The translations under genes and the position numbers were made by a program. Positions 14,848 to 51,859 of a stretch of DNA of 64,000 nucleotides are shown one piece after another. The first letter of the stretch is position 1. The number at the start of each line of letters is the position of its first letter. The notes beneath the pieces are model-generated. The model searched no databases. It was given only the letters and a program-made list of their open reading frames with translations, and had not been told where the DNA came from. Source of the DNA: Tsukamurella ocularis (GTDB taxonomy: Bacteria; Actinomycetota; Actinomycetes; Mycobacteriales; Mycobacteriaceae); NCBI RefSeq assembly GCF_024807615.1, contig NZ_JANUCJ010000002.1, positions 434,001-498,000 of the forward strand. The letters run 5' to 3'.

Positions 14848-14853
14848 AACCTG

Positions 14854-14859
14854 AGAATA
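14854..14859 (-). promoter_or_regulatory. -10 element for leaderless VanW gene
   Basis: TATTCT on the minus strand fits the actinobacterial TAnnnT -10 consensus. Six bases separate it from the GTG start at 14847, which is the spacing expected when transcription begins at the start codon. No Shine-Dalgarno sequence precedes the GTG. Confidence 0.45.
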
Positions 14860-14916
14860 TCCTGACGCGTAGTTACCGCACACTAGGGGCGATGCGATAC
14901 CGCAATCTCAGGCCAC

Positions 14917-15672
14917 TCAGTCCTCGTCGAGCTCTGCGAGGACCTCGTCGGAGATGTCGACGTTGGTGTACACGTTCTGCACGTCGTCGCTGTCCTCCAG
15001 CGCGTCCACCAGCTTGAACACCTTGCGCGCACCGTCGGCGTCGACGGGAACCTCGACCGACGCGCGGAACCCGGACTCCGCGGACTCGTAGTCGATGCCC
15101 GCCTCCTGCAGGGCGCTGCGCACCGCCACGAGATCGGTGGGCTCGGAGACGATCTCGAACTGATCGCCCAGGTCGCTGATCTCCTCGGCACCCGCGTCGA
15201 GCACGGCCATGAGCACGTCGTCCTCGGCCTGGTCGTTCTTGTCCAGCGTGACGATGCCCTTGCGGGTGAACAGATACGACACCGAGCCCGGGTCGGCCAT
15301 GTTACCGCCGTTGCGGGTCATCGCCACGCGGACCTCGCCGGCGGCACGGTTGCGGTTGTCGGTGAGGCACTCGATCAGCACCGCCACGCCATTGGGGCCG
15401 TAGCCCTCGTACATGATGGTCTGCCAGTCGGCGCCGCCGGCCTCTTCGCCACCGCCGCGCTTGCGGGCCCGCTCGATGTTGTCATTGGGGACCGAGGTCT
15501 TCTTCGCCTTCTGAATGGCGTCGTAAAGCGTGGGGTTGCCGTCAGGGTCGCTGCCACCCGTGCGCGCCGCGACCTCGATGTTCTTGATCAGCTTGGCGAA
15601 CAGCTTGCCGCGCTTGGCGTCGATCGCCGCCTTCTTGTGCTTGGTGGTGGCCCATTTGGAATGGCCGCTCAT
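14917..15672 (-). CDS. YebC/PmpR-family regulator or translation factor
   Basis: A 251-residue member of the TACO1/YebC family, recognised by the N-terminus [15 protein letters not shown] and the stretch GYGPNGVA around residues 88-95. The acidic C-terminus is typical. YebC proteins have been described both as DNA-binding regulators and as factors that help ribosomes through proline-rich stretches. In mycobacteria yebC lies between pdxT and ruvC, as it does here apart from inserted WS/DGAT and VanW genes. Confidence 0.93.
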
Positions 15673-36400: not shown

Positions 36401-37408
36401 TCAATCGCGATCGAGGTGTGGAGCGCCGGAGTTCCGCCCGGCCTGGCCCGATGCGCGCGACGCGATGAGCAGGCAGACGACGGTGGGCCCGTGCCCGATC
36501 ATCCGGTCCAGCTGCACGTGCACCGTCTCCCAGCCGTCGCGCAGGTGGAGACTCACCTCGGTCGATACCGGGCGTCCTGCCGCGACATCGGCACGGATTC
36601 GTTCGACGTCGACGGGATGAAGGAGCGGCTCGATTCCGCTGGCCACGGCACGTGGGACCTCGGGAGAACCGCTGCCGATCCAGGTCATCACGCCGCCGTG
36701 GCGAAGATCCAGCATCGCTGCATAGCGGTCCGACCGATCGAGGCTGAGCCGCAGGGCGTCGTGATCGACCGCGGCGTAGGTGGCCTCCCATGGATCCAGA
36801 CGCGCAGTCACGTCCTGGTCGACGCCCCTGATCAAGGTGCGACCCTCGACCGTGATGATGCGACGAACGGACCTGATGAGGTGATCGGAGCCGTCGTCGT
36901 GGCGGGCCAAGAACTCGTTGACGAACGAGTCGCCGGGCGTCGGGTCGTAGACGCCGCGCATCGCCTTGGTCACTTCGGCGAGCCCGGGAACGCGCTGGAA
37001 GACATCGGCCAACCCGAAGGGAGTGGCGATGCTCCGGCGCTGTTCCACGCCGTACATCCGCTGGAAGTCATCGGTCCAGAAGGACCGCAATGGCCTCCCG
37101 GGCTCACCCACGATCCATTCGTAGGCTGCGGCGAACGGTCTCGTCGCGAGGTCCGGTTCACCGATGCCCAGCTGAACGGCGTGCACCCTCTTCGACGGAC
37201 CGAAAACCGGAACCGCGCGGACCGCATCGCCGTCGGCGATCGCCACGTCAACCGGCCGCCCGGATCGCTGCACCGCGGCGACCGCCTTCAGCGCAGCGAC
37301 GCGGACGCCGGTCCGCAGGTACGTTCCCAACGGCCGGAAGTTCCGCGCACGGTCGTCCTCGGACACGACCGTCGGAACCTCCGACAGAGTCTCGACCAGG
37401 AGCCACAT
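36401..37408 (-). CDS. GAF/PAS-like signalling protein (DUF5593-type)
   Basis: A 335-residue soluble protein resembling mycobacterial proteins annotated as DUF5593/GAF. The N-terminal half (about 1-90) starts MWLLVETL and contains VPVFGPSKRVHAVQLGIG. The middle holds a PAS-like stretch with WTDDFQRMYGV (about 113-123), and the C-terminal half another with AYAAVDHDALR and GVMTWIGSG. There is no kinase, DNA-binding or membrane part. A sensor or ligand-binding role is plausible but unproven. The last 15 residues look unstructured. Confidence 0.6.
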   Translation of the reverse strand: MWLLVETLSEVPTVVSEDDRARNFRPLGTYLRTGVRVAALKAVAAVQRSGRPVDVAIADGDAVRAVPVFGPSKRVHAVQLGIGEPDLATRPFAAAYEWIVGEPGRPLRSFWTDDFQRMYGVEQRRSIATPFGLADVFQRVPGLAEVTKAMRGVYDPTPGDSFVNEFLARHDDGSDHLIRSVRRIITVEGRTLIRGVDQDVTARLDPWEATYAAVDHDALRLSLDRSDRYAAMLDLRHGGVMTWIGSGSPEVPRAVASGIEPLLHPVDVERIRADVAAGRPVSTEVSLHLRDGWETVHVQLDRMIGHGPTVVCLLIASRASGQAGRNSGAPHLDRD

Positions 37409-37478: not shown

Positions 37479-38246
37479 CTACTCGAGGAAGTCGCTCACC
37501 AATGAGAGAACCTTCTCCGGCTGCTCGACCAGCAGCATATGACCGCTGTCGACCTCCGCGTAGGTGCTCCCGACGACCAGCTGTGCGAGCTCCTGCACCT
37601 TTTCAACCGGCACGATCGCATCCGCCGTTCCCGCCACGAGCAATGTGGGCGCGGTGATCCGAGGCGCCAGGTCACGGATGTCGATCGTGACGTTCAGGTC
37701 GATCTGTCGCGAGGTCCCGACGTGTGGGACGGTGCCGCGCACGGCCTCGTCGACCCCGTCACCGAGCGCCGCGAGGAACTGGGGGCTGAACAGGGACAGC
37801 ACGAGGAACTCGCCGTACGCCCGATCGTCGAGGTCGGCCAGGCGGCGCCACAGGCCCATGAACAGCTCGTGCCGCGGGTCGGGTCCCGCCCACCCCGCCA
37901 GCAGGACCAATCGGCGCACCCGATCCGGGTACCGGCCCGCGTACGCCGCCGCGAGCACGGCCCCCAACGAGAAGCCGAGAAGGTCGACGGGACCGTCGTG
38001 GGTCCGGTCGTGGAGCGCCGCGATCCGATCGAGGATGACGTCCAGGTCGACGCCCTCCAGATCCGGCTCATCCCCCGTTCCAGGGAGATTCGGACGGAGG
38101 ACACGGTGACGTGCTGACAGCGCCGGAAGCAGATGCCCGAAATTGAGATCGCCGTCGGCGCCGGTGCCGTGGATCAGGAGAAGTGGGGTTCCGTCCCCGT
38201 CGTCGAAGTAGTCGAGCTCGGAGGCAGGAGTGGCGTGAAAAGTCAT
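37479..38246 (-). CDS. Alpha/beta hydrolase
   Basis: A 255-residue hydrolase with the oxyanion loop LLIHGTGADG (about 23-32), nucleophile Ser in GFSLGA, acid in GTADAIVP and His in DSGHMLLVEQPE. These are typical of esterases, lactonases and C-C hydrolases. ATG at 38246 overlaps the stop of the upstream acyltransferase gene (ATGA), which decides the start. It is the last gene of the minus-strand acyltransferase operon and could hydrolyse an acyl ester made by its neighbours. Confidence 0.87.
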   Translation of the reverse strand: MTFHATPASELDYFDDGDGTPLLLIHGTGADGDLNFGHLLPALSARHRVLRPNLPGTGDEPDLEGVDLDVILDRIAALHDRTHDGPVDLLGFSLGAVLAAAYAGRYPDRVRRLVLLAGWAGPDPRHELFMGLWRRLADLDDRAYGEFLVLSLFSPQFLAALGDGVDEAVRGTVPHVGTSRQIDLNVTIDIRDLAPRITAPTLLVAGTADAIVPVEKVQELAQLVVGSTYAEVDSGHMLLVEQPEKVLSLVSDFLE

Positions 38247-39421
38247 AGTGCGCCTTTCTGGGGTTGGGAGGAGCGGCGGAACAGACGAGGAGCCTCGCGA
38301 GCGCCGAAGCGGCGCATGGCCGGGCGTTCGACGAGGGTGTGCAGGGCCCATCCCGCGAGCACGGTCGCGAGGAAGAACCCGAGGAGGACGAGAACGGCGA
38401 CGGGTGTGGAGTACAGGCGCCCGTCCATGACCTTGGTCCGCACCGAGTACATGAGGACGTACTGCGCCATGTAGAAACCGAAGGAGATATCGCCGAGCCA
38501 CTGGAAAGCGGGAGTCGCCATCAATCCCGTCCGTCCCGACAGGTCGGCCACGGCGAACGACCCGACCACCAGCAGCAGCGGCACGACCAGAACCACCGTC
38601 AGGCTGAACAGGAACGGCGCACGCAGGTCGATCAGGTACGCCGCGACGAGCAGACTCACCGCCGCCGCCGGTCGCACCGCGGGCCACCGTCCGGCGACGA
38701 CGATCCGCGCGACGACCATGCCGAGGACGAACTCGAAGAGCCGCATCGGGGGGAAGTTGTAGCCGAGCCAGAACTGCAGCGACGAGATGGGAAACCCCTC
38801 CGGGGTGCGCGGCAGGCTCGGGACCGCCACCTGCACGACCAGTTCGGCGATCACCATTCCGAGGACCAGCGCGCCGACCACCGGCCACAGGTGCGCCTCC
38901 CGCAGGCGCTGGATCCACGGGATGAGGAACGGGAACAGGAAGTAGAAGAGCAGTTCACTACAGAGGGACCAGCTGGGCGGGTTCACGCTGATGTACGTGG
39001 CGTGATCCGGACTCCACGAGTGGAGCAGGAACAGATTGAGCAGCGCGGCGGGCCACGGCGTGGTCCACGCCGCGTAGAGCACCATGGCGAGCAGCCACAT
39101 CACGACGTGGGTCGGGAAGATCTTCGCAGCCCGTCGCCGCCAAAAGGTGGTTCGGGGTTGCGGCCGCCAGGTCCACGTGAGGATGAATCCGCTGAGCACG
39201 AAGAAGAAGGACACACCCATCCAGCCGGCCTTACTGAAGGCCGCCTGGTAGGCGTCGCCGATTCCCCGGTCCGCGAACGGGTTCTGGGGCGGATCCCAGA
39301 ACGAGGCGTGGAAGAAGAAGACGAGCGTCGCCGCGACGAAGCGCAGCCCGGTGAGGGACGGAAGGGCGGGCCGGCGGGCGGGCGCGGTCGCGACCACGCG
39401 CGCGTCCGGTGCGGCGGTCAC
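38243..39421 (-). CDS. O-acyltransferase, OafA/YrhL type (acyltransferase 3 family)
   Basis: An integral-membrane acyltransferase of 392 residues with about ten hydrophobic helices. The catalytic R-x10-H motif is present near the N-terminus (LRFVAATLVFFFHASF), as is the loop motif VSFFFVLSGF. The family transfers acyl groups to sugars, macrolides or polymers. ATG at 39421 overlaps the MFS stop. A second, clearly related copy lies at 40632; the two share the layout but differ enough to have distinct acceptors or acyl groups. Confidence 0.9.
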   Translation of the reverse strand: MTAAPDARVVATAPARRPALPSLTGLRFVAATLVFFFHASFWDPPQNPFADRGIGDAYQAAFSKAGWMGVSFFFVLSGFILTWTWRPQPRTTFWRRRAAKIFPTHVVMWLLAMVLYAAWTTPWPAALLNLFLLHSWSPDHATYISVNPPSWSLCSELLFYFLFPFLIPWIQRLREAHLWPVVGALVLGMVIAELVVQVAVPSLPRTPEGFPISSLQFWLGYNFPPMRLFEFVLGMVVARIVVAGRWPAVRPAAAVSLLVAAYLIDLRAPFLFSLTVVLVVPLLLVVGSFAVADLSGRTGLMATPAFQWLGDISFGFYMAQYVLMYSVRTKVMDGRLYSTPVAVLVLLGFFLATVLAGWALHTLVERPAMRRFGAREAPRLFRRSSQPQKGAL

Positions 39422-40635
39422 GACGCCTCCGCCCGGTCGACGGTGTTCACGGCGCCCGGTCCGGCAGCATCCGTCGCCGGGGAGCCGTCCGGCCGCAGCC
39501 GGGCGTTGAGGACCGTGACGAAGACCCAGCTCGCCAACGCCAGCCCGGCGGCCGCGAAGGCGATCGACGCGGCACTGCCTGTTGCCTCGAGGACCCGGCC
39601 CCCGAGCAGTGATCCACCGGCCGCTCCCACGCCGAAGGCCGACATGTTGGCGGTCAACGCCACGTTCGGGGCGGCAGCCGCCGCGGTGAGCACCCGGGTC
39701 TGCAGCAGCGGGATGAGGGCGAAGGTCGCGACACCGAAGAGCACCAGCGCCGCGACGGTCAACGGGACTCCGCGTACGAGGCCGACCAACGCGCAGCTCG
39801 CCGCGAAGGCGATCCCCGTGGCGAGAAGGCGCGGCGGGAGGTTGCCGTTCGCGAGGCGGCCACCGAGGACGTTGCCTCCCAGCGAGGCGATGCCGTAACC
39901 GAACAGCGCGAGGGAGAACCCGAGTCCGGTGATCCCGGCCGCCTCGTCGAGGGTGGGCTGCAGGTAGGTGATGATCGCGAACATCGCGGCCGAATAGAGC
40001 GCGGTCGCCGCCACCATGCCGCTCACCTGCGGTGCACGGAGCACGGCGAGTTCATCGGCGAGCGTGGCTCCGTCGCCGTCGGCGTGGGGCTCGGGCGGCC
40101 AGACGGTCAGGGCGATCAGTACACTCGCGACGGCCCCGAGCAGGCCGATCACCGCGAACGTCCAGCGCCATCCGGCGAGGCCGCTGAACCAGGTTCCGAG
40201 CGGGACGCCCACGACCGTCGCGAGGTTGATCCCGAATTGCATGGCCGCGACCGCGGAACCGGACTTGCCCGCCGGGGCCGAGCGCTCGGCCAGAATCACG
40301 ACGACCGCCATCAGCGTGCCGTGGATCGACGCCGTCAGCACCCGACCGAGCAGGAGCACTGGGAAGGTGGGGGCCAGGGCGACGACGGCGGTACCCGCGG
40401 CGAACACCAGCAGCAGTGCGACGGCGATCGTGCTCCGTCGGTACCGCAGTGTCACCGCGGTCACCACCGGGCCGAGGAAGGCCATGGTCAGCGCGTACAC
40501 GGTCACCGTCAGCCCGACGGTCGCGAGCGAGACACCGAACCGGGTGGCGAGTCCTTGCAGGATCCCGCTCGGGATCAACTCGGACGTACCGACCGCGAAG
40601 ATCGCGAGGATGAGGGGAAGCGCTCTGCGGCTCAT
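39418..40635 (-). CDS. MFS transporter, DHA1-type exporter
   Basis: A 405-residue major facilitator protein with 12 hydrophobic segments. It has the AraJ/sugar-efflux type N-terminus (FAVGTSELIPSGILQGLA) and the drug-exporter motif GVPLGTW in TM5. It lies between two OafA-type acyltransferase genes with four-base overlaps at both ends, so the export of an acylated product is the natural inference. ATG at 40635 is chosen because it overlaps the stop of the upstream acyltransferase. Confidence 0.88.
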   Translation of the reverse strand: MSRRALPLILAIFAVGTSELIPSGILQGLATRFGVSLATVGLTVTVYALTMAFLGPVVTAVTLRYRRSTIAVALLLVFAAGTAVVALAPTFPVLLLGRVLTASIHGTLMAVVVILAERSAPAGKSGSAVAAMQFGINLATVVGVPLGTWFSGLAGWRWTFAVIGLLGAVASVLIALTVWPPEPHADGDGATLADELAVLRAPQVSGMVAATALYSAAMFAIITYLQPTLDEAAGITGLGFSLALFGYGIASLGGNVLGGRLANGNLPPRLLATGIAFAASCALVGLVRGVPLTVAALVLFGVATFALIPLLQTRVLTAAAAAPNVALTANMSAFGVGAAGGSLLGGRVLEATGSAASIAFAAAGLALASWVFVTVLNARLRPDGSPATDAAGPGAVNTVDRAEAS

Positions 40636-41822
40636 GCCACGGTCTCCGATCTCGCGCCGGGCGCGGGCAGGTGCGGGGCTGACGAAGACGGTGGTTCCAC
40701 GGTCTCGGGGCGGGTCCGTCGCCGCGACCATCGTGCGTAGGCGGGCTTCTCGACGAACGTGTACAGGGCTGCGCCGGCGGCGATGCTCACCGCGAGGTAC
40801 AGCAGTTCGATGCCGATGGCAGCGGGGGCCTCGAAGCTCCTCGTCCCGAGGAGTTTCCGTCCTTCGACCAGGACCAGGGCATGCGCGAGGTAGAAGCCGA
40901 ACGAGATCTCCCCCAACCACTGCATGCGTCGGCCGCGCAGGACGCTCGAGCGGCCCGTGAGGTCACCGTGCGCGACGGTGCCGATCAGCAGCACGACCGG
41001 AACGAGCATGGTGAGTCGGACGCCGACCAAGTACGGGGTCGCGTACGAGAGCGCGTAGAACGCCGGGAAGGACGCGAGGACCACTGCGATCGGTACCTGC
41101 CGCCACAGGCCCCTGACGAGGATCGTCCCCAGCACCAGACCGGCGACGAAGTCGAACAGTCGCGACGGAGGGAAGACGTAACCGAACCAGTACTGCAGTT
41201 CGGACAGCGGCAGATCGTCGGGTGTGTGCGGCGACGAGGAGAACAGGAAATAGGCCAACGCGACGCTCACCCCGACCGCCGCGACCGCTGCTGCCAGTGC
41301 CGGCCACAGCGCACGGTCGGGAAGCCGGCGGATCAGCACGTAGACGAACGGGCAGCAGAGGTAGAAGAACAGCTCCGTCGACAACGACCAACTGGGCGGG
41401 TTGACACTCAGGAAGGTGGCGTAGTCGGGGACCCAGGTCTGCAGGAGCGTGACGTTCACGCCCGCCTGGGCGACGGTCGTGGTCGCGGCGGCGAACAGGA
41501 CGAGGGCGATCGCCCAGGTCACGATGTGATTCGGGAAGATCTTGACGAGCCGGCGCCGCCAGAACGCGCCCTTCGGCTCGCCCGGGCGGTCGATGTACGC
41601 CATGACGACGCCGGAGAGCACGAAGAAGAAGGTCACCCCGAGACCGCCCGCATAGCGAGCCGCCGTCGTGAAGGCATCGGCGATGCCTCCCGTCTCGAAG
41701 ACGGAGTTGGCGGGCTTCTGTAGCGAGGCGTGGAACAGGAACACCGACAGCGCGGCGAAGAAGCGCAGACCGGTCAGCGAATCGAGCCGAGGACGCGAGG
41801 CACTCGGCGCTGGCGCGGTCAC
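40632..41822 (-). CDS. O-acyltransferase, OafA/YrhL type (second copy)
   Basis: A 396-residue acyltransferase 3 family membrane protein with about ten helices and the catalytic R-x10-H stretch (LRFFAALSVFLFHASL). It shares VTFFFVLSG, RLVKIFPNHI and VNPPSWSLSTELFFYL-type stretches with the copy at 38243, showing a common origin. GTG at 41822 overlaps the stop of the oxidoreductase gene (GTGA). Two such enzymes in one operon suggest that two positions of a product, or two products, are acylated. Confidence 0.9.
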   Translation of the reverse strand: MTAPAPSASRPRLDSLTGLRFFAALSVFLFHASLQKPANSVFETGGIADAFTTAARYAGGLGVTFFFVLSGVVMAYIDRPGEPKGAFWRRRLVKIFPNHIVTWAIALVLFAAATTTVAQAGVNVTLLQTWVPDYATFLSVNPPSWSLSTELFFYLCCPFVYVLIRRLPDRALWPALAAAVAAVGVSVALAYFLFSSSPHTPDDLPLSELQYWFGYVFPPSRLFDFVAGLVLGTILVRGLWRQVPIAVVLASFPAFYALSYATPYLVGVRLTMLVPVVLLIGTVAHGDLTGRSSVLRGRRMQWLGEISFGFYLAHALVLVEGRKLLGTRSFEAPAAIGIELLYLAVSIAAGAALYTFVEKPAYARWSRRRTRPETVEPPSSSAPHLPAPGARSETVA

Positions 41823-42727
41823 GAGGTCGCCCCCGGATCGGGCACGAGGAGCACCTTGCCCCGGCTCCCCTGTTCGACCCGACGGTGCGCTGCCGCCGCC
41901 TCGCCGAACGGGTATACGGCCGCGACCGGCTGCACGAAGACCTCGCCCGCGTCCACCGCGCGGACGACCTCGCGCAGATCCGCGGCGTCGACCTCGACCC
42001 CGAGGTGATGCAGTGTGAAGTCACCGGGGTCGGGCAGCGCGAAGGTCGTGATCGACACGTAGGTGCCGCCTGCGACGACGTGTCGCACCGTCTCGGGCCG
42101 ACCGGCGCAGTCGATGATCACATCGAACCGCTGATCCTTCAGATCGACGTCGGTGAGCACCTCCGCTCCGTACCCGAAGTCCTCCACCGCTCCGCGCCAC
42201 GTCGCGACGTCGGTGGCGCGGACCAGCAGCGACAGGTGCGCCCCCGACCGGGCGGCGAACCCGGCGGCGAACTGCCCGACCGCGCCTTGGGCTCCGATGA
42301 CGAGTGCGCGAAGGCCGGGTGCGAGTGCGGCGGCCCGGACCGCCTGTAAGCCCGTCAGCCCGGCCAGGGGAAGTGCGGCGGCGTCACGCAAGGGCACCGA
42401 CGCCGGTGCCTGAGCGAGGAATCCACCGTCGATCGCCACGACCTCCGCCGTGCTCCCGATACCGGTGCCGAGCTGGGCGGTGGTTCCGATCACGCGATCG
42501 CCCGGTACGAAACCGGTGGCCCGCTGCGCCGACCGGACGACACCTGCGAGGTCCCATCCGATCACCGCCGGAGTCCGAGTCGGGATGAGACCGGACCGGG
42601 TGGCGACGTCGACCGGGTTGACCGCCGCGGCGACAACGTCGACGACGACGGCCCCTTCAGGAGTGGGCACGTCGACGACGTGCAGCACGTCGGGCGGGCC
42701 GGGCCGGGCGAACACGACCGCCCTCAT
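41819..42727 (-). CDS. NADPH:quinone oxidoreductase-like MDR protein
   Basis: A 302-residue zinc-independent medium-chain reductase. The N-terminal lobe has VVAAAVNPVDVATRSG and VIGWDLAG, and the Rossmann part has VIGAQGAVGQ. Zinc ligands are missing. It is the first full-size gene of the minus-strand acyltransferase operon. Its ATG overlaps the TGA of a 27-codon leader ORF, so translation may depend on that ORF. The substrate is unknown; reduction of an enone or quinone-like intermediate is typical of the family. Confidence 0.86.
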   Translation of the reverse strand: MRAVVFARPGPPDVLHVVDVPTPEGAVVVDVVAAAVNPVDVATRSGLIPTRTPAVIGWDLAGVVRSAQRATGFVPGDRVIGTTAQLGTGIGSTAEVVAIDGGFLAQAPASVPLRDAAALPLAGLTGLQAVRAAALAPGLRALVIGAQGAVGQFAAGFAARSGAHLSLLVRATDVATWRGAVEDFGYGAEVLTDVDLKDQRFDVIIDCAGRPETVRHVVAGGTYVSITTFALPDPGDFTLHHLGVEVDAADLREVVRAVDAGEVFVQPVAAVYPFGEAAAAHRRVEQGSRGKVLLVPDPGATS

Positions 42728-42807
42728 AGGTTCACCCGCGGGGTACGGACGGCGGCGCACGGACGGGCCGGTGCGACCGATCGGGTGCAGAAGGCGACTG
42801 TCGACAT
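42724..42807 (-). CDS. Short leader ORF (27 codons) coupled to the oxidoreductase gene
   Basis: ATG at 42807 is preceded by AGGAG at good spacing (nine bases), and the frame ends with TGA that overlaps the next ATG (ATGA). The predicted peptide begins MSTVAFCTRS and has two cysteines, six arginines and three prolines. Actinobacteria often place short Cys- and Arg-containing leader ORFs before stress or sulfur genes, where ribosome stalling controls the downstream gene. Whether this one is regulatory or simply a coupling device is open. The ribosome site is better than any for the oxidoreductase itself. Confidence 0.55.
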   Translation of the reverse strand: MSTVAFCTRSVAPARPCAAVRTPRVNL

Positions 42808-43235
42808 GGGGAGACTCCTGAACGGATAGGACGGCGATCGCCGTCGTTCGTTGCGGTGCAACCGCACTCGTCTCCCGTCCGCAACGGAACCACACCGGCC
42901 ACGGAGCCGCAATCCCACACATCGTGATGCCGCTCACATTGACAGTCGCAATGGTCGTGGAGGACTCTCTTAGCAGCGGCAATAGTCGCACCGCCCACGA
43001 GTCCCGCCCGACTCTGGAGCCCATCAGGACCGCGCCATCGGACATTCAGCCGTCCGGCCGTTCCTTCTCCCGCGCGACGTCTCCCACCAGCACGGCGCGT
43101 GAACACCACACTGCTCGAACCAGCTTGCTCCGCCGGCGCTCGGCGCTGGCAGGCGATACCGCGCGTCCCCGCTCACCGTCGAGCGGGGCCCCGGCATCCC
43201 CTCGAACCGAACTCCGTCACCGATGGGACTTCGCG
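42808..43235. promoter_or_regulatory. Divergent promoter region between acyltransferase and cyclitol operons
   Basis: About 430 bases without a supported gene apart from the leader ORF at its left edge. TTGACA occurs at 42939-42944 on the plus strand. GCAATGGTCG (42948-42957) and GCAATAGTCG (42979-42988) are near-identical direct repeats 31 bases apart, three helical turns, and could bind a regulator such as the GntR protein at 51158. No clear -10 was identified in either direction. Confidence 0.45.
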
Positions 43236-44462
43236 ATGCGAAACGGCACCAGATTCCAGCAAGGGCTCCACCACACCGTCATCGACCAGACCACCTGGAC
43301 CGTCGAGGCAGTCAAACAGGTCCGATACCAGGTCGTCGAGGCCAACGGCCTGTTCCGGCCCGAGAACGACCGACTCCTCACAGCCTGCCCCGAAGCGCAG
43401 ATCCATCGGGGAGACCGTCGGCTCGTCGTGGTCGACCACTCCGTCGACCTGCTCCACGGCGACACGATCCGGTCCTACTTCGCGCACCACGGCATCGCGG
43501 CGACCGTCATCCCGCTGCAGGCGCACGAGGCCGCCAAACAATGGGACAGCGTCACCCGCGTCGTCGACGTGATGAATGCCTTCGGGATCGACCGTCGCCG
43601 CGAGCCCGTGCTCGCGATCGGTGGCGGCGTCCTCACCGACGTCGTCGGGTTCGCGGCCAGCCTGTACCGCCGCGGTACCCCGTACATCCGTATCCCGACC
43701 ACGCTCGTCGGGATCGTCGACGCCGGGGTCGGCGTGAAGACCGGCGTCAACTACGGGACCGGGAAGAACCGCCTGGGCACGTACGCCCCCGCAACGGCGA
43801 CCTTCCTCGATCGGACGTTCCTGCGCACCGTCGACGCGCGGCATCTGAGCAATGGTCTCGCGGAGATCCTCAAGGTCGCCCTGGTGAAATCCGCGGAACT
43901 CTTCGAGGTCCTCGAAACAGCGGGCCGCGCTGTGCGAGACGACCACTTCCAGGGCAGCACAGCCGAACTCGATTCCGCCGCAACGGCGATCATCGCCGAG
44001 GCGATCCACCTCATGCTCGAGGAACTTCAGCCGAACCTGTGGGAGTCCACTCTGGAACGCTGCGTCGACTACGGTCACACGTTCAGCCCGACCGTGGAAA
44101 TGCACGCCCTGCCCGCACTCCTCCACGGCGAAGCGGTCAACGTCGACATGGCGCTGACCACCGCAATCGGTCGACTCCGGGGCGACGTCACCGAGACCGA
44201 CGCGGAGCGGATCTACCGGGTGATGGAGCACCTCGATCTCCCCCTGTGGGACCCCTCGCTCGACGAACCCGATCTCCTCGTGGACGCACTCGCCGATACG
44301 GTCCGCCACCGCGACGGTCAACAGCGGCTCCCCCTCCCGGTGGGTATCGGGCAACACCGATTCGTCAACGACGTCACGCCCGAGGAGATCCGGCGAGCAC
44401 TGTTCGCTCTGCGCCAGCGCGCCGGCGTTCCCGAAGCCAGCACCACCAAGGAGAGCGCATGA
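43236..44462 (+). CDS. Sugar phosphate cyclase, 2-epi-5-epi-valiolone synthase (EEVS) type
   Basis: These enzymes cyclise C7 sugar phosphates by the dehydroquinate-synthase mechanism, starting cyclitol pathways (AcbC of acarbose, ValA of validamycin). In the 408-residue protein GGGVLTDVVGF (129-139) binds NAD. DAGVGVKTGVNYG (162-174) and KNRLGTYAP have the EEVS-type sequence where dehydroquinate synthases read S-x-D-S-S-x-GGKTG. Metal ligands Glu210 (NGLAE), His281 (YGHTFS) and His297 (HGEAV) are intact. It heads the overlapping operon. EEVS, 2-epi-valiolone synthase and desmethyl-deoxygadusol synthase cannot be separated by eye. The ATG at 43236 has only a weak ribosome site. Confidence 0.87.
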   Translation: MRNGTRFQQGLHHTVIDQTTWTVEAVKQVRYQVVEANGLFRPENDRLLTACPEAQIHRGDRRLVVVDHSVDLLHGDTIRSYFAHHGIAATVIPLQAHEAAKQWDSVTRVVDVMNAFGIDRRREPVLAIGGGVLTDVVGFAASLYRRGTPYIRIPTTLVGIVDAGVGVKTGVNYGTGKNRLGTYAPATATFLDRTFLRTVDARHLSNGLAEILKVALVKSAELFEVLETAGRAVRDDHFQGSTAELDSAATAIIAEAIHLMLEELQPNLWESTLERCVDYGHTFSPTVEMHALPALLHGEAVNVDMALTTAIGRLRGDVTETDAERIYRVMEHLDLPLWDPSLDEPDLLVDALADTVRHRDGQQRLPLPVGIGQHRFVNDVTPEEIRRALFALRQRAGVPEASTTKESA

Positions 44463-45211
44463 GCGAGCAACAGACCGCCGTCGTCGTCGGCGGATCGACC
44501 GGCATCGGCCGCGGTATCGCCGACTCCTGGGCCGCATCGGGATTCGAGACCCACGTCTTCAGCCGGTCACGCCCCACCGGAGACGGCAGCGAGCTCCTGC
44601 AGTGGCACCGACTCGACTTCCGCGACCTCGTCGCAGCTCAGGCGGTGCTCGCTGCCGAACTGCCCGATCGGATCGACGTCGCGTGCTACTCGTCGATCTA
44701 CTTCACGTTGCGGCGCGAGAACTTCGTCGACGTCGTACAGACCGATTGGCTCGACCAGTTCGACATCAACGTCCACGGCCTGTTCCTCACGCTCCGGGCG
44801 ACGCTCCCCGCACTCCGGCGCGCGGCGCCCGGACTGTTCCTGCACGTCTCGTCCGAAGTGGTCTACAACGCGGGTCCCGGCAGGGCGGGCTACACCGCCA
44901 CCAAAGCCGCGGCAAGCGCCCTCATCGACTCCGTCGCCGAGGAGATCGATCCCGCTGAGGTCAACTTCGTGCAGACGTTGCCGGTCGGGATGGTCGACTC
45001 GCCGGGCATCCGCGCCCGGCGACCCGCTGACTTCGACTACAGCGACTACATGATTCCCGCCGACTTCGGACCGCTCGCCGCCCATCTCGCGGCGACCCGC
45101 GGGCGGGACCACGCCTCGGATGTCCTCGTGGTTCACGAGGACCGGACCTGGGCCTCCGTCACCGACGGGGTGCCCGTCTCGCAGTCACGTCCGCTGACCA
45201 CACAGGGCTGA
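44459..45211 (+). CDS. Short-chain dehydrogenase/reductase in cyclitol operon
   Basis: A 250-residue classical SDR with the cofactor motif GGSTGIGRG at 11-19, Ser131/Ser132 and the catalytic Tyr145-x3-Lys149 (YTATK). Arg/Ser residues after the second strand (FSRSRP) favour NADP. ATG overlaps the cyclase stop (ATGA). By analogy with AcbN of the acarbose cluster it may oxidise or reduce a ring position of the cyclitol, but this rests on context only. Confidence 0.88.
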   Translation: MSEQQTAVVVGGSTGIGRGIADSWAASGFETHVFSRSRPTGDGSELLQWHRLDFRDLVAAQAVLAAELPDRIDVACYSSIYFTLRRENFVDVVQTDWLDQFDINVHGLFLTLRATLPALRRAAPGLFLHVSSEVVYNAGPGRAGYTATKAAASALIDSVAEEIDPAEVNFVQTLPVGMVDSPGIRARRPADFDYSDYMIPADFGPLAAHLAATRGRDHASDVLVVHEDRTWASVTDGVPVSQSRPLTTQG

Positions 45212-45220
45212 GGAGACACG

Positions 45221-45871
45221 ATGACGGACCTCAGAACCCCCACGGCACTGCTGTTCGACATGGACGGGACCCTCGTCGACTCGACCGCGCTCGTCGAAAA
45301 CACCTGGGGCGACTTCGCCGAGACGCACGGCCTCGACCTCGCGGACGTGCTCGCCTTCGCGCACGGGCGGCCGACGGCGGCGACGGTGCACCACTTCTTG
45401 CCCGACCCCGACGTTGCCGCCCGGGAGACCGCGCGACTCGTCGCGTACGAGGAGTCGACGACGGACGGCGTCCGCGAGATCCCCGGCGCCCGTTCCGTCC
45501 TCACGGCACTCCCGGCGCATTCCTGGGCGATCGTGACCTCGGCGAGTAGGACCCTCGCCCGGAACCGTATGCGCGCCGCGGGACTTCCCCTTCCTGGAAT
45601 CCTCGTGAGCGCGGACGATATCGTGCGCGGCAAACCGGATCCGGAGGGTTACCTCCTCGCGGCCGCGGCGCTCGGCGCCGACATCACCGCGGCGACCGTA
45701 TTCGAGGACTCCCCGGCCGGGGTGCGCGCGGGCCGAGCGAGCGGCGCGCGCACCGTCGTCATCGGCGCGCTCACTGATTTCGACGCCGAGTTGGAGAGAT
45801 TTCCGGACTTCACGGCGCCCGCGCTGGTAGCCGCGCTCCTCGGCGCGCCCGCGCAGGCGGGTCGCCCATGA
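45221..45871 (+). CDS. HAD-family phosphatase / phosphoglucomutase-like
   Basis: A 216-residue HAD hydrolase with DMDGTLVDS (nucleophile Asp13, acid Asp15), Thr/Ser in IVTSAS, Lys in RGKPDPEGY and the Asp of FEDSPAG. The helical cap type is that of beta-phosphoglucomutase and sugar phosphatases such as DOG. In this operon it probably removes or moves a phosphate on a cyclitol phosphate. It starts nine bases after the SDR stop, with GAGGAG before the ATG. Confidence 0.88.
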   Translation: MTDLRTPTALLFDMDGTLVDSTALVENTWGDFAETHGLDLADVLAFAHGRPTAATVHHFLPDPDVAARETARLVAYEESTTDGVREIPGARSVLTALPAHSWAIVTSASRTLARNRMRAAGLPLPGILVSADDIVRGKPDPEGYLLAAAALGADITAATVFEDSPAGVRAGRASGARTVVIGALTDFDAELERFPDFTAPALVAALLGAPAQAGRP

Positions 45872-46875
45872 CCGCGCCCGTGTCCGTCACCGCACCCAGG
45901 TCCCCTTCCCCCGAGGTGGCACGATTCGCCGCCGATCTCGGAGGGACCTGGCTGCGTGTGCGGAAATGGAAGGGCAGCACCGTCGAACACACGGCGGCGC
46001 CGAGCCTGCTGAACTTCCCCGGTACTCCCGTCAGGGAGCTGCAGGACCGTCTGGTGGAAGTCCTCGCGACCGCGGCCCCGCTGGGTGCCGACGCCGTGAT
46101 TTCGTGCGGGGCCGCCCTCGACCACACCTCGGGAATCCTCTACGGCTCCGGGCCCCTCTGGGGCGCGACGGACGAACCCTACGACCTCGTGGGAGCCCTC
46201 CGTGGCGCCCGCCCGGACGTCACGTGGACACTCGTGAACGATCTCACAGCCGGCCTGGCCGATTTCGTCAGCCGGCGTGCCGGATCCGGCACGCGTCGCG
46301 CCGCGTACCTGACCGTCAGCAGCGGAATCGCACTCCGCACGGCCGACCTGCGCGACCGGACGATTCCCGTCGACGAGAACGGGCTCCAGGGCGAGGTCGG
46401 CCACTTGCCGACCGGTGTCACGTTCGACGGCGGTGACCCGCTCGTCTGCGACTGCGGAGTCGCCGGTCATGTCGCGGCGTACTCGTCCGGCCCGGGGATC
46501 GAACGACGCGCCCGTCGCGCCGGCGTCCAGCCGGAGGTGACCCACTGGCTCCCCGCCGCGCTGGAGGCGAACGACCCACTCGCGCAACGAATCTTGGGTA
46601 CGGCCATCGCCCCGATCGCGGGCCTGCTGCGCACCGCGTGGTGCCTCGATCCGCACCTCGACCTCGTCGGAGTCGGAGGCGGGGTCGTTGCAGGCATCGG
46701 CGCGCCGTACCGCACGGAGCTGCTCACACAGCTCGGTGTGGCCACCGGGTACGCCGACCGGGGGTTCAGCCGGGAATGGCTGGAGAGCCGGCTCGTGTTC
46801 TGTGCGGCAGGCGACGTCGACTGCCTCCGCGGCGCAGAGCTGATGCGCGACGGCTTCCTGACAGCGGCGATGTGA
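45868..46875 (+). CDS. ROK-family sugar/cyclitol kinase with altered zinc site
   Basis: A 335-residue kinase with the phosphate motif ADLGGTWLR at 22-30, the catalytic Asp125 in VNDLTAG, and GEVGH at 175-179. The ROK zinc finger is changed: Cys194 and Cys196 (CDCG) are present, but the third cysteine position has His201 (GVAGH). AcbM and ValC, which phosphorylate C7-cyclitols, belong to the same ROK/glucokinase group, so a cyclitol 7-kinase role is an attractive inference. ATG overlaps the HAD stop. There is no helix-turn-helix domain, so it is not a ROK repressor. Confidence 0.82.
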   Translation: MTAPVSVTAPRSPSPEVARFAADLGGTWLRVRKWKGSTVEHTAAPSLLNFPGTPVRELQDRLVEVLATAAPLGADAVISCGAALDHTSGILYGSGPLWGATDEPYDLVGALRGARPDVTWTLVNDLTAGLADFVSRRAGSGTRRAAYLTVSSGIALRTADLRDRTIPVDENGLQGEVGHLPTGVTFDGGDPLVCDCGVAGHVAAYSSGPGIERRARRAGVQPEVTHWLPAALEANDPLAQRILGTAIAPIAGLLRTAWCLDPHLDLVGVGGGVVAGIGAPYRTELLTQLGVATGYADRGFSREWLESRLVFCAAGDVDCLRGAELMRDGFLTAAM

Positions 46876-47951
46876 CCGCGACGCACCGCGCCCTCGTCCG
46901 TCGCGCACCGGATCACACGGGCAGGACCCTCGTCGACGTCGCGCAGGTCCCGACCCCCACCCTCGCCGACGGCGACCTCCTCGTCGCACCGGTGGTCGCC
47001 GGAATCTGTGGAACCGACTGGCAGATCCTGCGGGGCGAGAGGCCCGACCCCAGCAGGATCCTGGGACACGAGGGCGTGGCCCGGGTCGTCGCCGGGGACG
47101 GCACACTCCAGGTCGGCGGACTCGTGACGGTCAATCCGACGCACCCGACGGATCCCGGTTTCCTCCTCGGCCACAACGTTCCCGGCATGTGGTCGGAGCG
47201 CACCGTCGTCCCCGCCGCGGCGGTGAACGCCGGGCTCGTGCTGCCCGTACCGGAACCGCTCGCCGACCCGACACTCGTCGGCTCGCTGGCGGAACCGCTG
47301 GCGTCCACGATGTACGGGCTCGAGATCGCGCGGTCCATCGCGCGCCCCCGTTCACTCGTGGTGTGGGGTGACGGCATCGTCGGGCGCCTCGCCGCGATGC
47401 TCTGGACGCGGGAGCTGCCCGGCCTGCGGGTGCTGCGTGTGTCGCGGACCGACGCCTCGGATCCCGTCCTGCCCGCGCGACTTCGGGACCTGCCCGGCCC
47501 GGTGGCGGCCGTCCTCGCCACCCCCCGATCCGGCACCGCCGACGCGCTCACCCTGATCGACCGGCACGTCGACACCGAGCTGCTCGTGGACGTGCACGGC
47601 GGCATCCGCGCAGGCCTACTCCCGCTCCGGTCCGGAGCCGTCGACGCCGCAGTGATCCGCGCCGCGAACTGCTCCGGCATGCCTCACATCCCCGTGCACG
47701 TGTCGCTCCCGCGGCCCAACTGTGCGCCGCTCCACCTCTACGGCCATCGCGGCGTCGCCGACCGGCATCTGCTCGCGGCCGTCGACCTGCTCGTCGGAGC
47801 CCCGTCGGAGTTCGCTCCTGTCCTCACGCACGTCGTCGACCTCGACGGCGCCGCGGACCTCATTAACGCCGTCCTCGAGCGGGGCACGCGCACGCACGGG
47901 GAACGCCGTGTCCTGAAGTCCGCAATCATCGTCGACGGGATCTCGCCGTGA
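46872..47951 (+). CDS. Zinc-dependent MDR dehydrogenase lacking the structural zinc lobe
   Basis: A 359-residue threonine-dehydrogenase-like enzyme. Catalytic zinc ligands Cys46 (ICGTD) and His66-Glu67 (GHEG) are present, but the four-cysteine structural-zinc loop is replaced by NPTHPTDPGFLLGHN. The Rossmann part has VVWGDGIVGRL. GTG at 46872 overlaps the kinase stop (GTGA). Similar cyclitol dehydrogenases include AcbL. Probably oxidises a hydroxyl of the cyclitol or its phosphate. Confidence 0.83.
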   Translation: MTATHRALVRRAPDHTGRTLVDVAQVPTPTLADGDLLVAPVVAGICGTDWQILRGERPDPSRILGHEGVARVVAGDGTLQVGGLVTVNPTHPTDPGFLLGHNVPGMWSERTVVPAAAVNAGLVLPVPEPLADPTLVGSLAEPLASTMYGLEIARSIARPRSLVVWGDGIVGRLAAMLWTRELPGLRVLRVSRTDASDPVLPARLRDLPGPVAAVLATPRSGTADALTLIDRHVDTELLVDVHGGIRAGLLPLRSGAVDAAVIRAANCSGMPHIPVHVSLPRPNCAPLHLYGHRGVADRHLLAAVDLLVGAPSEFAPVLTHVVDLDGAADLINAVLERGTRTHGERRVLKSAIIVDGISP

Positions 47952-48745
47952 CGGGCGCCCGATCGACCTCGATCACCGTCGACGTACCGCAGTGGCGGAT
48001 CGGCGACGACCTCGCCGCAGCCGCTGCGGCAGCCCGGTCCGTCGCAGCGGACGGTCTACAGATCGATTTCGGCGGAGCGCATCGCGGTCCGCGCCTCGAT
48101 CAGGGGTACCGGCTCGACGAGGCTCGCCAACTGGCCTCGTCGCTCCCTGTCACCGCGTTGGCCGTCAACCACGCCAACGACCTCGGTCTCGTCACGGACG
48201 ACGGACGCCCCAATCCCGCGGCGACCGCGCTCTTGCGGACAGCGCTCCGCTGCGCCGTGACGATCGGCATCCCGGTCCTGCACGTTCCGGGGTTCCGGCG
48301 AAGCGCTCCGTCATCGCCCGCCCGTGTCGCCGGCACGGCCGCCGTATTGCGGGAAGCCGTCGACGACGCTGCGGTGCACGGAATCACGGTCGCCTACGAG
48401 TCCGCCCTCGACGGCCACGCAAGCATCGCGCTCGCCGAGACCGTCGGGCGGGGTGCGCTCGGACTCGTCCTGGACGTCGGGAACCTCGTCGACGCCGGGA
48501 ACGCACCCGCGGACTTCGCCACGGCCGTCGGCGGTCGCCTGCATGCTTGTGCCCACGTCAAGGCCTCCGTGCGCGCGCCGTCTGTCGAACCCGTGGCCTT
48601 ACTCCCCCAGAGTCCCGCCATCCGCTCGGTGCTCGTCGAGAACGACTACCGCGCCGTGCCCGCACGACTCGCTGCGGATGTAACCGCAGCCCGGAACCGC
48701 TTGTCGCAGAATCCCGAAGGAGCACAATGCGCGCGATCACACTGA
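47948..48745 (+). CDS. TIM-barrel sugar phosphate isomerase/epimerase
   Basis: A 265-residue xylose-isomerase-like barrel (AP endonuclease 2 family). Likely metal ligands are Glu151 (AYES), Asp176 (LDVGN), His203 (AHVK) and Glu231 (VEND), in the order expected of tagatose epimerase and inosose isomerase relatives. These enzymes move protons next to a carbonyl, so in this operon it may epimerise a ketocyclitol, the job done by AcbO/ValD in known pathways. GTG start overlaps the upstream stop; the end overlaps the next gene by 19 bases. Confidence 0.8.
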   Translation: MTGARSTSITVDVPQWRIGDDLAAAAAAARSVAADGLQIDFGGAHRGPRLDQGYRLDEARQLASSLPVTALAVNHANDLGLVTDDGRPNPAATALLRTALRCAVTIGIPVLHVPGFRRSAPSSPARVAGTAAVLREAVDDAAVHGITVAYESALDGHASIALAETVGRGALGLVLDVGNLVDAGNAPADFATAVGGRLHACAHVKASVRAPSVEPVALLPQSPAIRSVLVENDYRAVPARLAADVTAARNRLSQNPEGAQCARSH

Positions 48746-49767
48746 CCGCACCCCACACCGTGACCCTCGCGGAGGTGCCTCCCCCGTCGGCCGGTCCGGG
48801 CGAAGTGGTCGTCCGGGTAGCACTCCTGGGGTTGTGCGGGACGGACCTCGGATTCTTCGACGGCAGCAGCAACTACCTGCGGGACGGGCTCAAGGCGTAC
48901 CCGTTCGTTCCAGGGCACGAGTGGGTGGGCCGGGTCACCGAGGTCGGGGCGGGCGTGCCGGACGACCTTCTCGGCACCCGGGTCGCCGGCCACAACTTCC
49001 GGCCGTGCGGCCGGTGTGCCGAGTGCTCGCGGGGCCGGATCAAGTACTGCCCCGAGCGCAGCGAGATCGGGGTTCTCGGACCGCACCAGGGCGCGGGGGC
49101 CGAGTGGATCGCCGTCCCCGTCGAGACCCTTCGCCGGATTCCCGACTCCATGTCGGATGCCGCCGCGACGCTCCTCGAGCCCACATCCGCGGGAATGCAC
49201 GCGGTGGTACGTCTCGCCATCGGCGCTACGGACCGGGTCGCTGTTCTGGGCGCAGGGACGCTCGGGCTCGCCGCGGCACAGATCGTCCGCTCCCGCGGTG
49301 CTGATCTCGTGCTCTTCGATCCGAATCCCGTTGCCCGGGCACTCGCTGCGGAGCTCGGGATCATCGCCATTGATGTTCCTCGCGAGGCTGACCCGGGCGC
49401 CTTCGACGCGGTGATCGAAGCGTCAGGAAGCGAGGCCGCAGCGCGTGCGGCGGTGGATCTGGTCGCGCCGGGCGGCCGCGTGGCGCAGTTGGGGACGCCC
49501 CATCACGACGTGAATGGATACCCGGCTGCGACCCTTGTGATCCAGGACGCGACGCTCCACGGCGTGCTGTCGGGCGTCGGCTACTGGGACCCGCTCATCG
49601 AACTCGTCGAATCGGGTGTGGTGGACCTGGATTCCCTGGTCGACACCGTGTATCCGCTCGCCGCTGTCGACCGGGCTTTCGCGCACCTGGCCTCCGGGGC
49701 GCGGGCGCGTCCCAAGGTGCTCCTCTCTCTCGGTCCGGAGACGACCGGCCCGGCGCCGGGGGCCTAG
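48727..49767 (+). CDS. Zinc-binding alcohol dehydrogenase (MDR), full zinc set
   Basis: A 346-residue sorbitol/threonine dehydrogenase-like protein. Catalytic ligands Cys37 (LCGTD) and His64-Glu65 (GHEWVG) and all four structural-zinc cysteines (94, 97, 100, 108) are present. Rossmann motif GAGTLGL. A strong AAGGAG precedes the ATG at 48727, which lies inside the end of the isomerase gene. The operon therefore has two MDR dehydrogenases that differ in their zinc sites, plus an SDR. Confidence 0.88.
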   Translation: MRAITLTAPHTVTLAEVPPPSAGPGEVVVRVALLGLCGTDLGFFDGSSNYLRDGLKAYPFVPGHEWVGRVTEVGAGVPDDLLGTRVAGHNFRPCGRCAECSRGRIKYCPERSEIGVLGPHQGAGAEWIAVPVETLRRIPDSMSDAAATLLEPTSAGMHAVVRLAIGATDRVAVLGAGTLGLAAAQIVRSRGADLVLFDPNPVARALAAELGIIAIDVPREADPGAFDAVIEASGSEAAARAAVDLVAPGGRVAQLGTPHHDVNGYPAATLVIQDATLHGVLSGVGYWDPLIELVESGVVDLDSLVDTVYPLAAVDRAFAHLASGARARPKVLLSLGPETTGPAPGA

Positions 49768-49770
49768 CCC

Positions 49771-50979
49771 GTGTCGTCCATCGAGACCCGGGAAGAACTG
49801 GACGCAGCGACACTGATCCGCCTCGCGATCCTCGCCTGCGCGACCTTCATCTACGTCACCTTCGAGGTCTTCCCGGTCGGGCTGATCTCCGAGATCGCGC
49901 GCGATCTCGGGCAGCCGGAGAGTCGGATCGGGCTCCTGGTCAGCGGCTACGCCGTGGTGGCCGCGATCGTGACGATTCCGTCGGTGGCGTTCGCCGCCCG
50001 GATCTCGCGGGGCACGGCCCTCGTGGCGTCGCTGGTGGTCCTTGTGATCGCCGAGTTGTTGACGTCCGTCGCGGTGAACTACCCGATGATGGTCACTAGC
50101 CGCGTGGTCGCGGCCCTGACCCACGGCGTCCTGTGGTCGCTGGTTGCGCCTGCGGCCGCGGCCCTTGTGCCACCGAAGAAGGTCGGAGTGGCGACGGCGA
50201 TCGTCTTCGGCGGGCCGGCGCTGGCCGCGATCCTGGGCAGCCCCGGAACAGCTCTGACCGGCGGCCTGGTCGGTTGGCGGAACACGGCGCTAATCCTGGC
50301 GATCGCGACCATCGCGATCACCGTCGGTGTCGCGTGGGCGGTGCGCCCCCGTCCGGCGGCATCGGCGCCGTCAGTCCGCGTCGCCGGCACGGGCGCTCCG
50401 GCTGCGTCGATCGCCCAGTGGAACGTGGTCGCCGTCCTCTGCGTTCTCACTCTGGTTCTCGTCAGTGCGCATTTCGTGAGCTTCACCTACTTCGCCCTGA
50501 TCGTCGACCAGGTGACGCGCTCCGGCGGCACGGTGCTCTTCCTCGCGGTGTTCGGCGTTGCGGGGGCGATCGGCACCGTCCTCGTCGGTCGATACACGGA
50601 CCGGTCACCGCGCGGCACCGCGATCACCGCCTTCGCCGTCTTCCTCACCGGTGCCGTGCTCCTCGTCGTCGGCCAGGCCGGCGGCCCGACCACCGTGCGG
50701 TACGCGGTCCTCGTCTGCGCGGTCGTCGCGTGGGGTGCCGCCTACGCGGCGATCGGACCGGTCCTGCAGTCCGGTGTCATCCGCGCGTCGGCGGCGGACG
50801 CGGACCGCGCCTCGTCGGTCTACGTCACCTGCTATCAGGTGGGTATCGCAGGCGGTTCCGCGGTCGGGGCAGCGATCCTCGACCGCTCCATCACTGCTCT
50901 GCCCTGGATCACGGCGGGGCTCGCCACCGCGGCTCTCGCGTACGCCCTGTCGTCGCGCGCACGTTCGACGTTCCCGTAG
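49771..50979 (+). CDS. MFS transporter, DHA1-type exporter, in cyclitol operon
   Basis: A 402-residue major facilitator protein with 12 hydrophobic segments, beginning FIYVTFEVFPVGLISEIARDLG as in AraJ/YdhP-like sugar exporters. GTG start three bases after the dehydrogenase stop. It is the last gene before the regulator. I infer export of the finished cyclitol or of a self-toxic intermediate. The divergent operon has its own related MFS exporter at 39418. Confidence 0.87.
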   Translation: MSSIETREELDAATLIRLAILACATFIYVTFEVFPVGLISEIARDLGQPESRIGLLVSGYAVVAAIVTIPSVAFAARISRGTALVASLVVLVIAELLTSVAVNYPMMVTSRVVAALTHGVLWSLVAPAAAALVPPKKVGVATAIVFGGPALAAILGSPGTALTGGLVGWRNTALILAIATIAITVGVAWAVRPRPAASAPSVRVAGTGAPAASIAQWNVVAVLCVLTLVLVSAHFVSFTYFALIVDQVTRSGGTVLFLAVFGVAGAIGTVLVGRYTDRSPRGTAITAFAVFLTGAVLLVVGQAGGPTTVRYAVLVCAVVAWGAAYAAIGPVLQSGVIRASAADADRASSVYVTCYQVGIAGGSAVGAAILDRSITALPWITAGLATAALAYALSSRARSTFP

Positions 50980-51157: not shown

Positions 51158-51859
51158 GTGGTCACGATGAACGACGTCCCCACGCGTGGGCGTCCGAAGC
51201 GGCGCCAGCTACCCGACGAGGTGGCTATCTACGTGCGCGAGCAGATCATGTCCGGCATCATGCGCCCCGGCGACTTCCTCCGGATGGAGCCGATCGCCGA
51301 GGCCGTCGGGGTATCCATCACACCAGTACGCGAGGGGTTGCTGACGCTGCGCAGCGAGGGATTCGTCACTCTGGTTCCGCGCCGCGGCTTCCAGGTGGCG
51401 AAGTTCACCCGGCAGGACGTTCGCGATCTGCTGTGGACACAGGGACGGCTCGCAGGAGAACTCGCTGCCCGCACCGCGAAGAAGGCTACCCCTGAGCTCG
51501 TCGAAAGGCTCAGAGCGATCAACGCCGCGACGATGGATGCCGCAGCAGCCGGTAACACTGAGCGGATGGCTGATCTGGGCCACTCCTTCCACCGGGAGAT
51601 CAACGTGGCAGCCGACTCCGACCGACTCGCGCGAGTCCTCGCCGGAGTAGTCAATCATCTGCCGACCCAGTTTTACGCCTCCATCGAGACGCACGTCGAG
51701 GCGACCCGTCTGCAACACTGCGAAATACTCGACGCTGTGGAGGCTCGGGACGCGAAGAACGCACGCAAGATCATGGAGACGCACCTCGTGGACAGCGCCG
51801 ACCACGTGATCGCGATGCTCGAAGAAGCAGGGCTCTGGGCGGAAGAAACCACCGCCTGA
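51158..51859 (+). CDS. GntR-family (FadR/FCD type) transcriptional regulator
   Basis: A 233-residue regulator with an N-terminal winged helix (about 15-80, with GDFLRMEPIAEAVGVSITPVREGL) and a helical FCD ligand domain (about 90-220). In the FCD domain the metal-binding Asp/His pattern appears as HSFHREIN and RLQHCEIL. AGGAAG five bases before the GTG at 51158 decides the start over the ATG at 51167. It follows the cyclitol operon and is the best candidate for its control, sensing an acid or sugar-like ligand. Confidence 0.88.
   Translation: MVTMNDVPTRGRPKRRQLPDEVAIYVREQIMSGIMRPGDFLRMEPIAEAVGVSITPVREGLLTLRSEGFVTLVPRRGFQVAKFTRQDVRDLLWTQGRLAGELAARTAKKATPELVERLRAINAATMDAAAAGNTERMADLGHSFHREINVAADSDRLARVLAGVVNHLPTQFYASIETHVEATRLQHCEILDAVEARDAKNARKIMETHLVDSADHVIAMLEEAGLWAEETTA

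Follow-up and report, generated by a model that had tools for sequence, protein, structure and literature searches.

A 64,000-nucleotide stretch of the Tsukamurella ocularis genome (contig NZ_JANUCJ010000002.1, forward-strand positions 434,001 to 498,000; hereafter the window, whose own numbering we use) carries a 12-gene cluster in two divergent arms (38243-50979) that probably serves the synthesis and export of an acylated C7 carbasugar. Homologues of AcbC, AcbM, AcbO, AcbL and AcbN, the acarbose enzymes that lead to valienol 7-phosphate, are all present together in this cluster. Acyl-transfer and export genes stand in place of sugar-coupling genes, so the product is probably a small acylated pseudosugar; the tailoring, the acylation and the product itself are what we infer.

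The predicted valienol 7-phosphate module and the cluster around it

By searching 67 Actinoplanes genomes we found a match to the window cyclase in nine, one of which holds the acarbose cluster as judged by gene content and order (a passage of PMC7682106 gives the operon as acbVUSRPIJQKMLNOC). The other Actinoplanes regions were partly fetched and left out of the analysis. The last five genes of the operon, acbM-L-N-O-C, encode homologues of the window's ROK kinase (44% identity), dehydrogenase MDR1 (46%), SDR (59%), TIM-barrel protein (37%) and cyclase (57%), with coverages of 88-98%, and for each of the five Acb proteins the best match among the 12 proteins of the window cluster was the expected one. 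Passages of PMC7081202 and PMC9200736 describe AcbC as a cyclase, AcbM as a 7-kinase, AcbO as a 2-epimerase, AcbL as converting 5-epi-valiolone 7-phosphate to valienone 7-phosphate and AcbN as reducing the latter to valienol 7-phosphate, the five together leading there from sedoheptulose 7-phosphate. By analogy, the window cyclase would convert sedoheptulose 7-phosphate to 2-epi-5-epi-valiolone (as AcbC), the ROK kinase would add the 7-phosphate (as AcbM), the TIM-barrel protein would epimerise C-2 (as AcbO), MDR1 would eliminate water to give valienone 7-phosphate (as AcbL) and the SDR would turn this into valienol 7-phosphate (as AcbN). This valienol part of the pathway is predicted from homology, and the likeness to the early steps of acarbose synthesis proposed in an initial annotation of this DNA holds in that sense gene by gene. 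The acarbose-bearing Actinoplanes genome also has a second locus resembling 2-epi-5-epi-valiolone synthase (EEVS) loci (L183, 7905-11014), in which the cyclase match is split over two stretches and stands between ROK-like and MDR1-like genes.

The features of the cluster are listed below; some identities are given to T. conjunctivitidis HKU72, the closest relative found with this cluster.

38243..39421, minus strand: AT3b, membrane acyltransferase-3 (PF01757; Pfam E 2.6e-24; 95% identity in T. conjunctivitidis)
39418..40635, minus strand: MFS2, second efflux-type MFS transporter (Pfam MFS_1, E 2.3e-36)
40632..41822, minus strand: AT3a, membrane acyltransferase-3 (PF01757; Pfam E 2.3e-28; 91% identity in T. 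conjunctivitidis)
41819..42727, minus strand: QOR, MDR protein resembling quinone/enone reductases, the gene that opens the divergent arm (Pfam; NCBIfam below cut-offs)
42728..43235, no strand: 508-base intergenic region between the divergent arms, from the gene boundaries a presumed two-way promoter region
43236..44462, plus strand: EEVS-type sedoheptulose-7-phosphate cyclase, AcbC homologue (Pfam, PDB search, tree, 57% identity to AcbC)
44459..45211, plus strand: SDR, AcbN homologue (59% identity, 97% coverage, E 9e-96)
45221..45871, plus strand: HAD-IA phosphatase (Pfam)
45868..46875, plus strand: ROK kinase, AcbM homologue (44% identity, 88% coverage, E 5e-65)
46872..47951, plus strand: MDR1, AcbL homologue (46% identity, 98% coverage, E 2e-73)
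47948..48745, plus strand: putative TIM-barrel epimerase, AcbO homologue (37% identity, 93% coverage, E 3e-25)
48727..49767, plus strand: MDR2, zinc-type dehydrogenase (Pfam; 87% identity in T. conjunctivitidis)
49771..50979, plus strand: MFS1, efflux-type transporter (Pfam)

All eight plus-strand genes (43236-50979) are intact, with ATG or GTG starts. The initial annotation had described them as an operon of overlapping or nearly touching genes in a mycolate actinobacterium; neighbours indeed overlap by 4-19 bases or lie 3-9 bases apart, Pfam backs each of the families it named, and the host is a Tsukamurella. Its extent stood for these eight genes but missed the divergent arm on the minus strand (38243-42727), whose four genes are joined by three successive 4-base overlaps. 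As delimited here, the cluster is the 12 genes of both arms. A gene resembling Rv3651 (36401-37408), which lies beyond the minus-strand arm in both Tsukamurella carriers, may or may not belong to it.

The acarbose phosphatase gene acbJ found no match in the window at 1e-8. No phosphatase of the AcbJ type was thus identified, and in the place of that role stands the HAD-IA protein, which would remove the 7-phosphate to give free valienol. MDR2 and QOR may then adjust oxidation or saturation, a tailoring oxidation being our proposal for MDR2.

Cyclase family and recurrence of the gene set

In a PDB search with the window cyclase the best match was the validamycin cyclase ValA (4p53, E 5e-121), followed by the desmethyl-4-deoxygadusol synthase (DDGS) 5tpr (E 1e-79), all dehydroquinate synthases (DHQS) scoring E 4e-39 or weaker. 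A second cyclase-family gene, presumed to be aroB, lies on another contig of the 4.3-Mb genome and is 30% identical. We built a tree of 48 proteins that included ValA, AcbC, five DDGS rows and the presumed aroB. The window cyclase grouped with the EEVS sequences, ValA and AcbC included, at a position that the tree does not fix more closely; AcbC stood among the type-3 rows, the five DDGS rows formed one 100/100 branch and the presumed aroB was remote. Deep joins in this tree are untrustworthy because long branches meet (aroB with L046). Residues D278 and H358 of the window cyclase are common to ValA and AcbC, where DDGS have Ala and Thr, and we take them to be the published fingerprint residues. 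That two fingerprint sites exist is stated in a figure legend of PMC4426668. By sequence, the window cyclase groups with EEVS, apart from DDGS and DHQS; the phylogenetic check suggested in the initial annotation, run with EEVS and DDGS references and the presumed aroB, did not place it with true dehydroquinate synthases.

Several other cyclases were seen alongside. Those of loci L044, L045, L073-L075 and L078-L080, from Mycobacteriaceae and another family of the same class, are 40-44% identical to the window's and, since they are 62-65% identical to DDGS 5tpr, we regard them as sunscreen-type; the cyclases of L046-L049 are not 5tpr-like. The cyclase frame of L070 (8947-10611, 554 aa) is prolonged by a tail that, by eye, resembles a cupin. 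Plasmids of Streptomyces clavuligerus, Agrobacterium vitis and Rhizobium rhizogenes carry cyclases annotated as sedoheptulose 7-phosphate cyclase (H1-H20).

A contig scan gave 189 confirmed cyclase relatives, of which the best 80 are covered by the counts that follow. All five module families were found at 26 of these 80 loci, in the order EEVS-SDR-ROK-MDR1-TIM at 16, in the acarbose order ROK-MDR1-SDR-TIM-EEVS at seven and in another order at three. Fifteen of the 80 have HAD and MDR2 matches as well as the five families (type 1); their hosts are T. conjunctivitidis, nine Streptomyces, Kitasatospora, Kribbella, Streptacidiphilus, a Propionibacteriales metagenome-assembled genome and Nocardia abscessus. 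Recurrence of this gene run outside Tsukamurella shows that it is not a chance assembly and answers the question of conservation that the initial annotation had raised. A second MFS gene is present in 13 of the 15 type-1 loci and a QOR-like gene in seven.

Regulatory genes beside these clusters differ. We rejected a GntR gene (51158-51859) as a candidate regulator of the cluster, since nothing matching it stands beside the T. conjunctivitidis copy; a GntR match of 28% occurs in one type-1 locus (L083). Five type-1 loci from Streptomycetaceae, Kribbella and Propionibacteriales (L082, L086, L089, L100 and L104) have a conserved gene of helix-turn-helix kind with two companions beside the cyclase, and this regulatory trio of the Streptomyces type-1 clusters had no match at 1e-3 in the window, nor in the T. 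conjunctivitidis locus L081.

A different layout (type 2) was seen at 11 loci in Rhodococcus, Nocardia, Streptomyces and Nesterenkonia (L093-L099, L102, L103, L105 and L108; family names taken from L042). Here EEVS stands beside a KAS III homologue, a VOC protein and a divergent TetR gene, with a luciferase-like enzyme in all except L108, and none of the 11 gave a match for SDR, TIM or acyltransferase-3. Across the 80 loci a TIM gene stands beside EEVS in 28, a VOC gene in 40, both in none and neither in 12 (Fisher p 4e-12, a value that ignores relatedness and includes loci clipped by contig ends), as if the TIM-barrel and VOC proteins were two unrelated epimerases replacing each other. AcbO had itself been considered a VOC protein, wrongly: the gene in the acbO place of the acarbose cluster is a TIM-barrel homologue. 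We aligned the window TIM protein with those of 23 of the 28 loci having a TIM match (four were left out and L107 of Nocardia abscessus, whose match at 14740-15522 has a stop codon inside it, was dropped), and E151, D176, H203 and E231 are invariant in 24 of 24. A TIM profile compared with solved structures finds Art22, UlaE, IolI and D-tagatose 3-epimerase; a PDB search with the TIM protein alone gave nothing at 0.001.

Within Tsukamurella the cyclase was found in two of 16 genomes. The second carrier, T. conjunctivitidis, has the same minus-strand arm in the same position and arrangement (89-96% identity). A pair of serine/threonine-kinase and amino-acid-permease genes lies to the right of the cluster in the window and to the left of it in T. 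conjunctivitidis, and four other fetched Tsukamurella genomes have the pair with no cluster genes nearby. In the tree, the nearest relatives of the window cyclase outside the genus are Streptomycetaceae sequences. Taken together, these three observations fit lateral gain of the cluster; GC content lends this no support, as at 70.0% against 69.4% for the window it gives no sign of foreign origin.

Proposed acylation and export, and the likely product

The two acyltransferase-3 proteins score 99.6 and 86.3 bits for PF01757, against a Pfam cut-off of 31. Matches to this family lie near 14 of the 15 type-1 loci and near 36 of the 80 EEVS loci, where we count 47 in 1.57 Mb (by tblastn with the window's two proteins) against about 2 expected from 86 matches in ~61 Mb, or ~1.4 per Mb, of eight whole genomes that all have a cyclase of this family (counted by a different method, Pfam HMM). 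In the six type-1 genomes among those eight, 2-3 of the 7-15 matches fall within ~15 kb of the cyclase. This excess and nearness support a functional link between acyltransferase-3 and cyclase, with an acylated product as a candidate only. One or both of the membrane acyltransferases would transfer acyl groups onto hydroxyls and the two MFS proteins may export the product. An acylated cyclitol had been one guess of the initial annotation, and the two acyltransferase genes it overlooked strengthen that suggestion.

The alternative that fares best, although we consider it unlikely, is that the operon makes a free carbasugar of the valienol, streptol or gabosine kind while acyltransferase-3 acts elsewhere, for example on cell-envelope glycans. 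Free valienol needs no more than the five core enzymes and a phosphatase, acyltransferase-3 genes are scattered throughout the eight genomes searched, and passages of PMC10717218 report AcbL-like and HAD genes in a C7-cyclitol cluster predicted in S. lincolnensis, from which four carbasugars are cited there. Against this, the window's acyltransferase genes sit inside the divergent operon with 4-base overlaps, and acyltransferase-3 matches are enriched near cyclases as just described.

It is also conceivable, but distinctly improbable, that the cassette feeds a pseudo-oligosaccharide or an aminocyclitol with assembly genes elsewhere in the genome, as the same five enzyme families feed acarbose. 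We compared ten frames of the acarbose cluster (our own gene calls, labelled V, U, R, I/S, J, Q, K, B and A plus one unlabelled, with V, U and I/S tentative), and none had a match at 1e-8 in the 64-kb window or in 14 of the 15 type-1 loci (L107 was left out), the rest of the genome not being searched. In the window this covers nucleotidyltransferase, pseudoglycosyltransferase, aminosugar and AcbJ frames, in keeping with the initial annotation, which had seen no genes for pseudo-oligosaccharide assembly nearby. A role of the cyclase as an additional dehydroquinate synthase, or as a sunscreen-type DDGS, can be set aside as most improbable: its Pfam label is DHQ_synthase, but PDB scores, D278/H358 and the tree all place it with EEVS, it is not the DDGS-type cyclase of a mycosporine cluster, and a presumed aroB exists on a separate contig.

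Several observations weigh against an acylated carbasugar made by this route. With AcbO the TIM-barrel protein shares only 37% identity, and the Asp that follows the metal-binding His (HxKD) is Ala in the window (HVKA), with H(L/V)KD kept in AcbO, in T. conjunctivitidis and in a Streptomyces homologue. The HAD-IA protein is not AcbJ-like, and MDR2 and QOR have no assigned reaction. The choice of EEVS over 2-epi-valiolone synthase (EVS) depends on how near the cyclase stands to ValA and AcbC, in comparisons that covered EEVS, DDGS and DHQS sequences, and in the tree the type-1 cyclases do not form a single clade, though its starred branches are still compatible with one origin. Fourteen of the 16 Tsukamurella genomes are without the cyclase. 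The acyltransferase-3 match is missing from L107, which is type 1 by gene content, and L090, with the five core genes, has no HAD, MDR2 or acyltransferase-3 match. Acyltransferase-3 proteins also modify cell-envelope glycans.

Synthesis and export of an acylated C7 carbasugar nevertheless remains our preferred explanation of the 12 genes. More tentatively, and with considerable doubt, these clusters might represent a so far unassigned actinobacterial system for acylated carbasugars of the gabosine, COTC or rancinamycin kind. In it a shared kinase-dehydratase-cyclase core would have been combined with either of two unrelated ways of acylation, acyltransferase-3 in type 1 and a KAS III homologue in type 2, and with a candidate epimerase of one of two unrelated kinds, the TIM-barrel or the VOC protein. 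The system would have spread sideways among soil actinomycetes and into opportunists such as Tsukamurella, Nocardia and Rhodococcus. Here the valienol module of the diabetes drug acarbose is separate from its sugar-coupling machinery and occurs across several actinobacterial families in the manner of a portable unit. Glycosidase inhibition and allelopathy are candidate activities of carbasugars, whether acylated or free (streptol, in passages of PMC8599487), and the cluster is a possible source of enzymes for making valienol and its esters.

Comparison with known systems

In the passages of open-access literature available, we found no report of the 12-gene layout, no acyl-valienol cluster with an acyltransferase and no named gabosine biosynthetic gene cluster. 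The window offers a compact set of genes for a kind of product that we did not find linked to genes in this literature. Queries joining C7-cyclitol and acyltransferase led to the acarbose genome paper, where the acyltransferase belongs to a polyketide synthase, those for a Tsukamurella cyclitol only to NAT-gene work and those for rancinamycin only to work on fungal compounds. The initial annotation knew of no described product for this combination, and likewise none was found in these passages. A weak chemical lead is a mass peak of a Nocardia strain matched to gabosine B (in part of PMC7285244). The early steps are established, whereas a cluster that combines them with acyltransferases and omits sugar coupling appears to be undescribed.

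The validamycin cyclase ValA is of the same family as the window's. At locus L161, where the cyclase shares 68% identity with ValA, there is a VOC match and, by eye, the start of an NTP-transferase-like gene, whereas the window has the TIM-barrel protein and an acbR search of it found nothing. Candidatus Burkholderia kirkii is a symbiont with an EEVS gene and the free C7 cyclitol (+)-streptol, an example of a small free cyclitol as the final product of a pathway; its genes lie on a betaproteobacterial plasmid and are likened to ours by description only (passages of PMC8599487).

The cluster predicted to make C7-cyclitols in S. lincolnensis is the closest described relative, again compared by description only and from passages of PMC10717218, in which SLCG_5041 is likened to SalM and AcbL and SLCG_5038 is a HAD protein. 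By the numbering, two genes lie between them. The type-3 cassette of S. cyaneochromogenes (L110) has this spacing too; it differs from the window in having no acyltransferase-3 match, another gene order and a cyclase on another branch. With the acarbose cluster itself, the window shares all of acbM-L-N-O-C, matched one to one as described above; it differs in gene order and in adding another HAD gene, MDR2, QOR, two acyltransferase genes and two MFS genes.

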